Positions 13,075-17,400 of a stretch of DNA of 64,000 nucleotides are shown piece after piece (position 1 is the first letter of the stretch; each line of letters opens with the position of its first letter). This DNA comes from Hyphomicrobiales bacterium. GTDB taxonomy: Bacteria > Pseudomonadota > Alphaproteobacteria > Rhizobiales > Beijerinckiaceae. The translations under genes were made by a program, and so were the position numbers. The stretch spans positions 62,001-126,000 of the forward strand of contig JAIXYZ010000011.1 of the NCBI GenBank assembly GCA_027489955.1, read 5' to 3'. The notes under the pieces were generated by a model, which had not been told where the DNA came from, did not search any database, and was given only the letters and a program-made list of their open reading frames with translations.

Positions 13075-13608
13075 ATGTCGTTCTCCCTGCGCCCGGCCGC
13101 CCCGGCCGACATTCCCGCCATCACCGCCATCTACGCCCATGCCGTCACCCACGGCACCGCCTCCTTCGAGCTCGTCCCGCCGGACGAAGAGGAGATGGCG
13201 CGGCGCATGGCGGCGCTGCTGGAGGGCGGCTTCCCCTATCTCGTGGCGACCCGGGACGGCGCGGTCCTCGGCTATGCCTATGCCGGCCCCTACCGGCCGC
13301 GCCCCGCCTACCGCAACACCGTGGAGAACTCGATCTACGTCTCGCCGGATGCGCGTCGCCTGGGCGTCGCCCGCACGCTCCTCACGGCCCTCATCGGCGA
13401 ATGCGAGGCACGCGGCTTCCGGCAGATGGTGGCCGTCATAGGCGACCGGGAATCCCGCGCGTCGCTCGGCCTGCACGAATCGCTGGGCTTCCGCCTGATC
13501 GGCATCGCCGAGGCGGTCGGCTACAAGCACGGCCGCTGGCTGGACCAGATCCTGATGCAGAAGACGCTCGGCGCCGGATCGGCCGAGCCGCCGGCCGTCA
13601 GCCCGTGA
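13075..13608 (+). CDS. GNAT N-acetyltransferase, phosphinothricin/methionine-sulfoximine type
   Basis: The 177-residue enzyme carries the GNAT acetyl-CoA-binding motif (ARRLGVARTLL, near residues 98-108) and the hallmarks of the PAT/MddA/YncA group: FELVPPDEEEMARRM, GYAYAGPYRPRPAYR and NTVENSIYVSP. Such enzymes acetylate the amino group of phosphinothricin, methionine sulfoximine or related amino acids. The actual substrate here is not known. The ATG at 13075 gives the family-typical N-terminus SLRPAAPADIPAI. Its last 11 bp overlap the end of the convergent DUF2794 gene. Confidence 0.9.
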   Translation: MSFSLRPAAPADIPAITAIYAHAVTHGTASFELVPPDEEEMARRMAALLEGGFPYLVATRDGAVLGYAYAGPYRPRPAYRNTVENSIYVSPDARRLGVARTLLTALIGECEARGFRQMVAVIGDRESRASLGLHESLGFRLIGIAEAVGYKHGRWLDQILMQKTLGAGSAEPPAVSP

Positions 13609-13984
13609 CGAGCTTGAGCCGTTTCTCCAGCACGCCGAGCACGCGGGGCAGGTCGTCCCCGCGCTTCATGACGAGGCCCGTGGCCGCGATCACCGAATAG
13701 GCGCCCTGGCGCCGGGCGCGGCTCGGGTCCTTCTCGATCCGGTAGAGCGGGACCTCGCTCGTGCGGCGGAAGATCGAGAACACCGCCTTGTCGCGCAGGA
13801 AGTCGATGGCGTAATCGCGCCATTCTCCGGCGGCGACCATGCGGCCGTACACATCCATGATGGCCCGCAATTCGCGATGGTCGAACGACACGTCCGGCCT
13901 CGTCCGGCTGAGCGGCACCACGACGTCCGCCCGCTCGTTCCGCTGTCCCGGCGGGGCATCCCCGCCGCCTGCGCCTGAATCCAT
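13598..13984 (-). CDS. DUF2794 domain protein
   Basis: This 128-residue soluble protein matches the alphaproteobacterial DUF2794 family: FDHRELRAIMDVYGRMVAAG, then EWRDYAIDF, then AYSVIAATGLVMKRG. It has no signal peptide or membrane segment and no assigned function. The N-terminal ~30 residues are Gly/Ala/Pro-rich and poorly conserved. It is transcribed away from the structured intergenic region at 13985-14486 and overlaps the GNAT gene tail-to-tail by 11 bp. Confidence 0.85.
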   Translation of the reverse strand: MDSGAGGGDAPPGQRNERADVVVPLSRTRPDVSFDHRELRAIMDVYGRMVAAGEWRDYAIDFLRDKAVFSIFRRTSEVPLYRIEKDPSRARRQGAYSVIAATGLVMKRGDDLPRVLGVLEKRLKLVTG

Positions 13985-14267
13985 TCCCGTCTCCGGCAGT
14001 CGGGGTGGATGATGCGCCCCGGCCGCCCCTGTGGCAAGACGCCGCCGCCCTGCCCGTCGCGATCACAATAATGCCCTAAACGCGCCCATCCCCGGCCCCA
14101 GTGCGGGGGCATGAATCATCGCGTTGCCTCGATGGCCTGGCGCTCCGGCTCCGGACACGTCAGCCCCCCAGCCCCCCGTGGCAGGAGCGCCGGCCATCGA
14201 GTGCACGGACAGGGATCGTTCCCGATCCCCGACCGCAAGTCAGTCGAGTCGAGCGTACCCTATCTCC

Positions 14268-14297
14268 TCGGCCGGTCCCCTGGACCGGCCGATTTGT
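14268..14297 (+). terminator. Terminator-like hairpin in the leader of the glutamate dehydrogenase gene
   Basis: TCGGCCGGTCC pairs perfectly with GGACCGGCCGA around a 3-base loop and is followed by TTTGTT. No annotated plus-strand gene ends just upstream (the nearest ends at 13608), so it more likely ends a short RNA or controls read-through into the dehydrogenase gene. A second hairpin with five T residues follows at 14305-14349. Confidence 0.65.
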
Positions 14298-14304
14298 TAT
14301 GCGG

Positions 14305-14349
14305 CGCGGGACGATTTTGGGCATTTCATCGTGTCCCGCGATCATTTTT
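14305..14349 (+). terminator. Second terminator-like hairpin, tandem to the preceding one
   Basis: CGCGGGAC pairs with GTCCCGCG (8 bp), extended by GAT with ATC across a 2-base bulge, and is followed by ATCATTTTT. It lies 12 bases after hairpin 3. Tandem terminators are common behind strongly expressed small RNAs. Confidence 0.6.
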
Positions 14350-14486
14350 GCATTTCCCGGCGGCTCTCCATGCAATTTTTCGATTCGTGAGCCACAATCG
14401 CGAACGCATGGACTAAGGATTCGGCAGGCGAAGCCGTACGGGTCCTCCGCGCGGCTGCCGGACTGACATCGCAGGGAGCGGACGCA

Positions 14487-17400
14487 ATGTCGCGCAAGAG
14501 CGTGGGTGGCGAGGCGCAATCCGACCGGCAGGGCGCGGCACCGCCCGGCTTCGTGGAGGCATTGTTCGGGCGCACCGCGCCCGAGGACATCGCCCACGTG
14601 GACACGGCCGCCCGCGAACGCCTGGCCGGCGCCGCCTACGCCCACGTCGCCGACCGCCGCCAGCCGGACCGCCACGACATCCGCATCTACGACCAGCAGA
14701 TCACCGGCGGCGACAAGCCCGCCGAGGTCACGGTGGTCGAGATCGTCAACGACAACATGCCGTTCCTGCTCGATTCCACCCTCGCCGAGCTCGGCGAGCA
14801 GGGCTACGAGCCGCGCCTGGTCGCCCACCCGATCCTGGCGGTGGAGCGGGCCCCCGACGGCACGTTCCGCCAGAGCTATGGCGAGGCCCATGGGCCGGTC
14901 CCCACGGGGGCGCGGCGCGAGAGCCTGATCCACATCCACATCGACCGGATCGACGCCGCGAAGGACCGCGAGCGGCTGAAGGACGGCCTCGACCGCACCT
15001 TCACCGACGTGCGCCTGGCGGTGGACGACTGGGCCGCCATGCGCGTGCGCCTGGCCGCGGCCAGCCACGCCTTCAAGGCCAACCCGCCCCCGCTCGACGC
15101 GCGGGAGGTGTCCGAGTCCACCCATTTCCTGGACTGGATCGCCGACGACAATTTCACCCTGCTCGGCATCCGTCAGTACCGCTTCGTGGAAGGCGACACC
15201 GCCGACCCGGTGGCCGACAGCGGCCTTGGCATCCTGCGCGACCCGGACGTGCGCATCCTGCGCAAGGGCCGCGAGCTGGTGGTGACGACTCCCGAGATCC
15301 GCGCCTTCCTGGATCGCCCGGTGGCGTTGATCATCACCAAGGCGAACGTGAAGTCCCGCGTTCACCGGCGCGTCCATCTCGACTATGTGGGCGTGAAGCT
15401 CTTCGCTCCGGACGGACGCATCGAGGGCGAGCTGCGCATCGTCGGCCTGTTCACGTCCAGCGCCTATACGCGCCCCTCCGACACGATCCCGTACCTGCGC
15501 CACAAGGTCTCGCAGGTCGTCGCCCGCGCCGGGTTCGATCCGGCGAGCTATTCCGGCCGGGCGCTGCTGAACGTGCTCGATTCCTATCCGCGCGACGAAC
15601 TGTTTCAGGTCGACGTCGATACGCTGTACCGGTTCGCCCTCGCCATCATGCAGCTGTCCGAGCGGCCGCGCCTGCGCGCGCTGGCCCGGGTGGACGAATT
15701 CGACCGTTTCGTCTCCGTCCTCGTCTACGTGCCCAAGGACCGGTACGACACGCGCATTCGCGTGCGCATCGGCGAGTTCCTCGCCCGCGTGTTCAAGGGC
15801 CGGGTCTCCGCCGCCTACCCGGCCTATCCGGAAGGCCCGCTGGCGCGCACCCACTTCATCATCGGCCGCTACGAGGGCGAGACGCCCCGCGTGCCGCAGG
15901 AGCAGCTGGAATCCGGCATCTCCGCCATCGTGCGCACCTGGGCCGACGGCTTGCGGGACGCCCTCGCCGGCAGCATGGGCGGCGTCGCGGCCCGGACCCT
16001 GGGCCAGCGCTACGCGGACGCGTTCAACGCCGCCTACCGCGAGGCCTTCGCCCCGGCGGACGCCATCGGCGACATCGCCGTGCTGGAGACCCTGACGGGC
16101 GAGCGCGACCGCGCCATCGACCTCTACCACCGGGACGGCGACCCCGACACGCGCGTGCACCTGAAAGTGTTCGCGCGGGGGGCGTCCCTGCCCCTGTCCC
16201 AGCGCGTGCCGATGCTGGAGAACCTCGGCTTCCGCGTCGTGAACGAGCGGACCTACCGCGTGGTGCCGGCTGCTGCCCGCGAGGCGGACCGCATCTGGCT
16301 GCACGACATGGCGCTCGAGCGCGCGGCCGGCGGCGCCATCGCCGCCGCCGAGATCGGGCCGCTGGTCGAGGCGTCGATCATGGCGCAGTTCCGCGGCGCC
16401 GCGGAATCCGACCGGTTCGATTCGCTCGTCCTGGAGGCTGGCCTGGGCTGGCGGGACGTCGCCCTGGTGCGTACGCTCGGCCGCTTCCTGCGCCAGGCCC
16501 GCAGCGCCTACGCCCAGGACTATCTCGCCCAGACCCTGGCGCGCCATGCGGGCATCACCCGCCAGATCGTCGACCTGTTCCACGCCCGCTTCGATCCCCG
16601 CGTGCCCGCCAGGGAGCGCGACAAGCGCCAGAAGGCCCTGCGTGCGGAGATCGAGACGGCCCTTGCCGCCGTCTCCAGCCTCGACGACGACAAGATCCTG
16701 CGCCGCTTCGTCAACCTCGTCGAGGCGGCCGTCCGGACGAACTTCTTCCAGGTGGCGAAGGACGGCCTGCCCCGCGCCACGATCGCGCTGAAGTTCGAAT
16801 CGGGCCGGATCGAGGGCCTGCCCCTCCCCCGCCCGCTCTACGAGATCTTCCTCTACTCCCCGCGCGTCGAGGGCGTGCACCTGCGCTTCGGCAAGGTTGC
16901 CCGCGGCGGGCTGCGCTGGTCCGACCGGCCGCAGGATTTCCGCACCGAGGTGCTGGGCCTGGTGAAGGCCCAGCAGGTGAAGAACGCGGTCATCGTCCCC
17001 GTGGGCGCCAAGGGCGGCTTCGTTCCCAAGCATTTGCCGTCCGCCTCCGACCGGCAGGCCTGGCTCGCCGAAGGCACCGAGGCCTACCGCATCTTCATCC
17101 GCACGCTGCTGGAGCTGACCGACAACATCGTCGACGGCGGCATCGTCCCGCCCGAAAACACCGTCCGCCACGACGGCGACGACCCCTATCTCGTCGTCGC
17201 CGCCGACAAGGGCACGGCCACCTTCTCCGACACGGCCAACGCGCTGTCGCTGGAAAAGGGCCATTGGCTCGGCGACGCCTTCGCCTCGGGCGGCAGCCAG
17301 GGCTACGACCACAAGAAAATGGGCATCACCGCCCGCGGCGCGTGGGAGGCGGTGAAGCGCCACTTCCGCGAGATCAACGTCGACATCCAGACCCAGCCCG

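Follow-up and report, generated by a model that had tools for sequence, protein, structure and literature searches.

Genes and features of the locus

The stretch of DNA that we analyzed (the window; 64,000 nt) contains a putative small RNA gene on the plus strand, at 14120-14299. On one side of it is a minus-strand gene that encodes a DUF2794 protein of 128 amino acids (13601-13984, with the stop codon at 13598-13600; Pfam PF10984, E = 5.5e-39). On the other side is the gene for NAD-glutamate dehydrogenase (gdh), which is on the same strand as the putative RNA and starts 187 nt past its terminator. An earlier, sequence-only reading of this DNA stated that no plus-strand gene ends just upstream of the candidate RNA. 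This is correct: the nearest one encodes a GNAT acetyltransferase and ends at 13608, and the minus-strand DUF2794 gene comes next. Three conserved features were absent from that reading, namely a promoter region (14062-14116), a C-rich loop at the tip of the hairpin, and the DUF2794 neighbor.

A structured RNA with compensatory changes

The main element of the RNA is a long, spoon-like hairpin (14128-14201, plus strand). When the pairs are read directly, 14128-14146 and 14184-14201 form 18 Watson-Crick pairs with T14138 as the single bulge, which is exactly the stem that had been described. A shorter helix continues this stem towards the loop. A 7-bp hairpin in the interval between the spoon and the terminator (14212-14229, plus strand), which had also been proposed, is likewise present in the sequence and in the fold (14212-14218 pairs with 14223-14229). 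The RNA region folds better than shuffled sequences do, both for 14120-14310 (z = -4.77; 1 of 200 shuffles was equally good) and for a larger region, 14060-14490 (z = -3.63; 0 of 100 shuffles).

There is a single copy of the RNA in its own genome. When we compared the region to 60 related genomes with BLAST, the matches ran down to chance level, and the best ones were centered on the hairpin. We fetched 30 loci, and the motif of the apical loop is present in 25 of them, in most cases on a long stem whose sequence differs. From these 25 loci, we aligned 14 sequences without structural guidance (alignment A2); L006, L012, L014, L015, L016, L019, L020, L023, L024, L026, and L028 were omitted for a clean alignment. 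RNAalifold predicted 15 pairs for A2, and 10 of the 15 have compensatory double changes. The covariation score was 0.445, as compared to 0.217 for the shuffled alignment and at most 0.283 for slid ones.

We also considered a larger set of 100 loci, which comprised 80 of the at least 120 loci from a pattern search and 20 others. All but two of these (L075 and L077) were matched, and the other 98 were fitted to a covariance model to give alignment A3. The pattern search demanded GTTGCCT as well as the loop, so the invariance of the loop among those loci is built in. Also, some genomes contribute two loci each; we merged rows that were identical for the covariation and terminator counts, and not for the gene-order counts. 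Across the 92 distinct rows of A3, 92.8% of the cells are paired, 13 of the 15 pairs have double changes, and the covariation score is 0.477 (versus 0.200 when shuffled and at most 0.151 when slid). Many named Hyphomicrobiales are included, such as Microvirga, Bosea, Rhodoplanes, Parvibaculum, and Hoeflea. Given the quality of the fold and the strong covariation of the stem among relatives, the region is a conserved structured RNA, as the sequence-only reading had suspected.

To see how far the RNA extends, we used R1, a covariance model built from A2. Within the family, R1 has matches in 35 of 60 genomes (at E = 0.01). Within the order, it has them in 136 of 297 (at E = 1e-4), and with one exception these genomes have a single match each. 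Across the class, R1 matches 12 of 289 genomes (at E = 0.01). Besides the window's own locus, there are 11 such loci from the class (L032-L042), and 7 of these have a match to DUF2794 nearby, including L041, where the match is partial and about 1.4 kb off, and L042, where it is about 0.8 kb off. We took the matches at L036, L038, L039, and L040 (33.4-34.6 bits) to be false, because these 3-kb loci contain no DUF2794. The genomes of L036 and L040 have weaker copies of the RNA (23.3-27.4 bits) that do adjoin DUF2794 (L209 and L218). Both of these loci are from a single distant genus (g98), where the RNA, with the loop UGUAGCCCCCAAGCCCAU, is present in two tandem copies next to DUF2794.

The terminator

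Tandem terminators had been proposed, and the first of the two holds up well. It is an intrinsic terminator at 14268-14299 (plus strand), found by a terminator scan, with a solid stem of 11 pairs (14268-14292) and then TTTGTTA; we take this T-run as the 3' end of the putative gene. Relatives have a terminator as well: among 92 distinct regions downstream of the hairpin, 78 contain one, as compared to 5, 5, and 3 of 92 in shuffled ones. The second candidate (14328-14342) is weak, with 6 pairs of which 3 are G-C, and its stem is not retained in the sister genome (L002). The region has 2 terminator-like sites in total, versus 0.9 ± 1.1 in shuffled sequences, so the second site is near chance level and we do not count it as a terminator.

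A CUCCUC element between the hairpins had been suggested to be complementary to ribosome-binding sites. The sequence CTCCTC is at 14264-14269, where it overlaps the stem of the terminator. Like the second terminator, it is not retained in the sister genome and is near chance level, so we discarded this idea.

Farther downstream, the sequence just before gdh (14340-14400) includes TTTTTGCATTTC and CCATGCAATTTTTCGAT. This stretch is largely retained in the sister genome and may be a promoter or operator of gdh.

The apical loop

At the tip of the hairpin is the conserved loop UCAGCCCCCCAGCCCC (14160-14175, plus strand). We presume that it is a seed for binding mRNAs, both from its conservation and by comparison to PmaR, a small RNA from Agrobacterium whose C-rich loop binds targets (PMC6234868). 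The loop is open in the consensus fold from RNAalifold and in the copy from the sister genome, while in the window's own unconstrained minimum-energy fold it is partly paired locally. The sequence of the loop differs between groups, yet it stays C-rich. It is strongly kept, but many of the loci had been picked by the loop motif.

A probable promoter region with triplets 11 bp apart

Upstream of the RNA, the element ATCACAAT is followed by GCC triplets at 14073, 14084, and 14095 (14062-14097 in all, plus strand), which are 11 bp apart and are presumably the binding site of an activator. In 52 of 86 thinned relatives, the RNA is likewise preceded by three GCC triplets at exactly this spacing. 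None of the 86 has the triplets at any other spacing between 6 and 17 bp, and shuffled sequences have the 11-bp spacing in just 0.06 cases on average. A putative -10 region, CATGAAT, is at 14110-14116 (plus strand); relatives often have GATAAAT. At the positions where a -35 box would be expected, the relatives show no conservation.

Similar triplets are found upstream of more distant members. In three PmaR-type loci (described below), there is a G(C/T)C at -47, -36, and -25 from the start of PmaR. If the GCC triplets of the window are placed in the same way, the 5' end of the window RNA would be at about 14120. In eight upstream regions of the CC3664 type (also described below), G(C/A/T)C triplets recur with a looser spacing of 10-12.

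GCC or GTC boxes that are phased at about 11 bp fit an activator that binds in tandem, and the pattern suggests a dedicated activator whose copies would occupy neighboring sites along the same face of the DNA. Regulators of the OmpR/PhoB type bind direct repeats with a period of about 11 bp. Such an activator would also fit an observation about BjrC174, a Bradyrhizobium RNA that we discuss below: among the tested start sites that lacked a mapped promoter, it reportedly had the highest promoter activity (PMC4842269).

We also looked for promoters of the sigma-EcfG type. The pattern GGAA[CT]-N15-18-[CG]GTT is absent from all 98 upstream regions, including the window's (L001), and a simple pattern for a sigma-EcfG-like promoter is absent from 20 of 20 upstream regions of the CC3664 type.

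The DUF2794 neighbor

Using tblastn, we found DUF2794 near the RNA at 84 of the 98 loci. At 82 of these, the gene is divergent and upstream, at a distance of 127-594 nt; the remaining two are the same contig, with the gene on the far side of the RNA. Some of the 14 loci without DUF2794 end close by.

Conversely, we searched for C-loop hairpins of any kind beside DUF2794 genes. They were present at 12 of 30 loci in a sample from the class and at 18 of 28 loci from Rhizobiaceae-type genomes and other members of the order. As controls, the far side of DUF2794 had 3 and 2 hairpins (respectively) and the opposite strand had 1 and 0, while shuffled sequences gave 12 of 90 and 11 of 84. No C-loop hairpin was recognized at the other 18 of 30 loci across the class or at 10 of the 28 further loci. 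At one of those 10 (L258, which starts at the end of a contig, so that the scanned region was misplaced), R1 does match the RNA, with 34.1 bits. Elsewhere the hairpin may have been lost, may have diverged, or may have been overlooked; thus either the family is not universal or the detector misses diverged forms.

We also considered the structure of the DUF2794 protein. The predicted structure (pLDDT 81.6) is a helix, five strands, and another helix. Foldseek found no match for this model at E = 0.001 or below, and the PDB search found no sequence relative, with a single hit at E = 0.69. The best score from VIA was Z = 7.5, and the hits included the DNA-binding domain of MotA from phage T4 (Z = 6.2; rmsd 3.1 with 79 aligned) and frataxins (Z of about 4.8 to 5.8). 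Because all of the Z scores are under 8, we do not claim a fold. In the literature that we searched, DUF2794 appears as a row of a table about MucR in Brucella.

Similarity to BjrC174 and CC3664

The sequence-only reading recognized no known class of RNA. This agrees with Rfam at its gathering cut-offs, where the window has no matches, and it does not stand in substance: below the cut-offs, the two best matches in the window are to BjrC174 (RF02355; 28.1 bits, with a cut-off of 45) and CC3664 (RF01530; 17.9 bits, with a cut-off of 60). Both of these share the loop, and RNAs like BjrC174, CC3664, and PmaR are found at the equivalent place in other genomes.

Of 20 loci that we scanned with the BjrC174 model, 8 reach the gathering score, with up to 84.8 bits and always over the RNA. 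One of these loci (L013) belongs to the window's own taxonomic family. Seven of the 8 have DUF2794, and the exception (L142) has a flank of 258 nt.

Among 60 genomes from the family of genome G122, 16 have a CC3664 match that passes the cut-off; we take this family to be the Caulobacteraceae because a control, Caulobacter vibrioides, also matches. Among 21 loci from the CC3664 model, 20 have the loop AGCCCCCC(C)AGCCCC and 18 have a divergent DUF2794. The window has the same pattern, that is, a loop of AGC(6 or more)AGC(4 or more), a long stem, and a divergent DUF2794. R1 matches 19 of the 21 loci in place, although weakly (12.8 to 27.3 bits), and it has six matches elsewhere in the same loci, with up to 18.4 bits. 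In two Caulobacteraceae-type cases (L223 and genome G423), there is a second match to the C-loop or CC3664 type about 250-280 nt from the first, and the RNA may be duplicated there.

RF02355 and RF01530 appear to be one family, with many members that are missed by both models. Rfam lists no clan for either of them.

PmaR in Agrobacterium

PmaR (formerly C10), from Agrobacterium tumefaciens, is shaped like a spoon, has an end loop rich in C, and is encoded between two hypothetical genes. The PmaR paper (PMC6234868) reports that the loop is accessible to nucleases and takes part in the binding of mRNA in vitro, that there are nine targets, most of them positively regulated, and that changing four nucleotides of the loop from CCCA to UUUU abolishes the regulation of targets. 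It also gives the identity of nine nucleotides (G18, G19, G47, which closes the loop, C58-C59-C60-A61, G62, and G81), and it calls PmaR restricted to Agrobacterium and one strain of Rhizobium (PMC6234868). The window RNA is likewise a spoon-like hairpin whose C-rich loop contains CCCAG (open in the consensus, and partly paired in its own fold).

To find the corresponding locus, we reached a Rhizobiaceae-type genome via a Hoeflea protein and looked for TelA, a type of telomere resolvase that occurs in Agrobacterium, in 199 genomes of the same family. TelA passed the cut-off in 5 of the 199 genomes. Three of them are in one genus (g325, which may hold more of the 199), but the remaining 2 belong elsewhere, and TelA is therefore not a specific marker.

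At all three loci from g325 (L246, L251, and L253), the RNA beside DUF2794 has 9 of 9 of the published PmaR nucleotides. The full fit occurs at exactly one of about 1,413 offsets in each of these regions, while the background over all loci is 25 of 2,728,324 offsets. Because the three genomes are from the same genus, we count this as one observation, not three. At L263, which is TelA-positive and outside of g325, the RNA looks different. From the positional match, it is very likely that PmaR is the Agrobacterium member of the window RNA's family, with g325 putatively being Agrobacterium.

Interpretation

Overall, we think it highly probable that the window encodes a trans-acting small RNA that is about 180 nt long and has its own promoter, and that this RNA forms one alphaproteobacterial family with BjrC174, CC3664, and PmaR. 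Transcription would begin at about 14120, divergent from the DUF2794 gene, and would stop at the terminator (14268-14299). The RNA would fold into the long spoon-like hairpin and present the loop UCAGCCCCCCAGCCCC, which most likely would pair with G-rich stretches of several mRNAs and could alter their stability or translation. This function, which we infer from PmaR, is the likely one.

The link across families depends on the loop, the position, and the order of genes more than on the overall sequence, because the R1 scores of the PmaR-type and Caulobacteraceae-type members (12.8 to 27.3 bits) overlap with those of the off-site matches.

The C-rich loop might act as a sponge or a protein-binding site instead, by titrating a protein or another RNA rather than by pairing with mRNAs. 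Strong conservation of the loop fits a protein site too (with the caveat about how loci were picked), there is mostly one match per genome, and the two C-tracts look like repeated binding sites. However, the loop of PmaR is reported to be needed for the regulation of several mRNAs and to take part in binding them in vitro (PMC6234868), and the loop differs between groups while remaining C-rich, as pairing would allow. We consider a sponge to be improbable.

The sequence-only reading had offered two options, a small RNA of about 170-220 nt or a long leader that controls gdh. If the RNA were a cis-acting leader (an attenuator, for instance), its stem and terminator would govern read-through into gdh. 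The gene's start just 187 nt past the terminator, on the same strand, fits with this, and 27 of the 98 relatives also have gdh downstream in this orientation. But no gdh was found at the other 71 loci (flanks are only about 1.5 kb at some loci, so a few gdh genes may be hidden); where gdh was found, the match begins 283-2058 nt past the hairpin; a divergent DUF2794 is a commoner neighbor than gdh; and the conserved part is the stem with its C-rich loop. There is thus no constant association of the RNA with gdh, and on gene order we rejected the leader, which is very unlikely. The covariation, the terminator in 78 of 92 downstream regions, and a gene order that is mostly independent of gdh favor the small RNA. 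The simplest reading is a small RNA gene of its own, which in some members of the group happens to be followed by gdh.

It is also very unlikely that the RNA is a C-loop RNA like GsrN or CcnA, with a role in the cell cycle or in general stress, and is not orthologous to PmaR, BjrC174, and CC3664: these two Caulobacter RNAs do pair with G-rich mRNA leaders via C-rich loops (PMC5869019, PMC8959179), but the sigma-EcfG-like pattern is missing from all of the upstream regions (98/98 and 20/20 for the CC3664 type), CcnA is encoded at the replication origin (PMC5988900, PMC8959179), and most loci of the window RNA's family adjoin DUF2794.

If the window RNA belongs with PmaR, BjrC174, and CC3664, it might even be a core small RNA of the Alphaproteobacteria. 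The three named RNAs would then be orthologs, derived from one ancestral small RNA, that have kept the locus, the loop, and a GCC/GTC promoter phased at about 11 bp, together with DUF2794 as a possible regulator or partner. We see the chances of this as about even.

In the literature that we searched, we found no paper that links PmaR, BjrC174, and CC3664. The three received their names in separate studies, and they seem to form a single family. If this is true, then the work on the targets of PmaR extends to a much wider group than Agrobacterium, and both the abundant small RNA BjrC174 and CC3664 from Caulobacter gain a likely function. Rfam's two narrow models would need to be merged, because copies like the window's are missed. 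The family also raises the question of which activator reads the GCC promoter with its 11-bp phasing.

Comparison with known small RNAs

A C-rich loop that pairs with G-rich mRNA leaders is characteristic of both GsrN and CcnA from Caulobacter (PMC5869019, PMC8959179). However, GsrN has another type of promoter, whereas the window RNA has no sigma-EcfG-like site, and CcnA is at another locus.

CC3664 from Caulobacter resembles the window RNA in its loop (AGCCCCCCCAGCCCC in 20 of 21 loci), its long stem, and the divergent DUF2794 at 18 of 21 loci. It differs in the sequence of the stem and in the 5' end (GUCGGC versus GUUGCC), and the window scores 17.9 of the required 60 bits. BjrC174 from Bradyrhizobium has the hairpin, the loop, and the divergent DUF2794 locus in common with the window RNA, although the window's copy, at 28.1 bits, is below the cut-off of 45.

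PmaR has a different loop (ACCCUUUACCCCCAGCCCC, versus UCAGCCCCCCAGCCCC in the window), and its targets are known in Agrobacterium only. It shares the long stem and the single-stranded, C-rich end loop, and the PmaR-type loci of g325 share the divergent position and the G(C/T)C triplets at 11-bp spacing as well.
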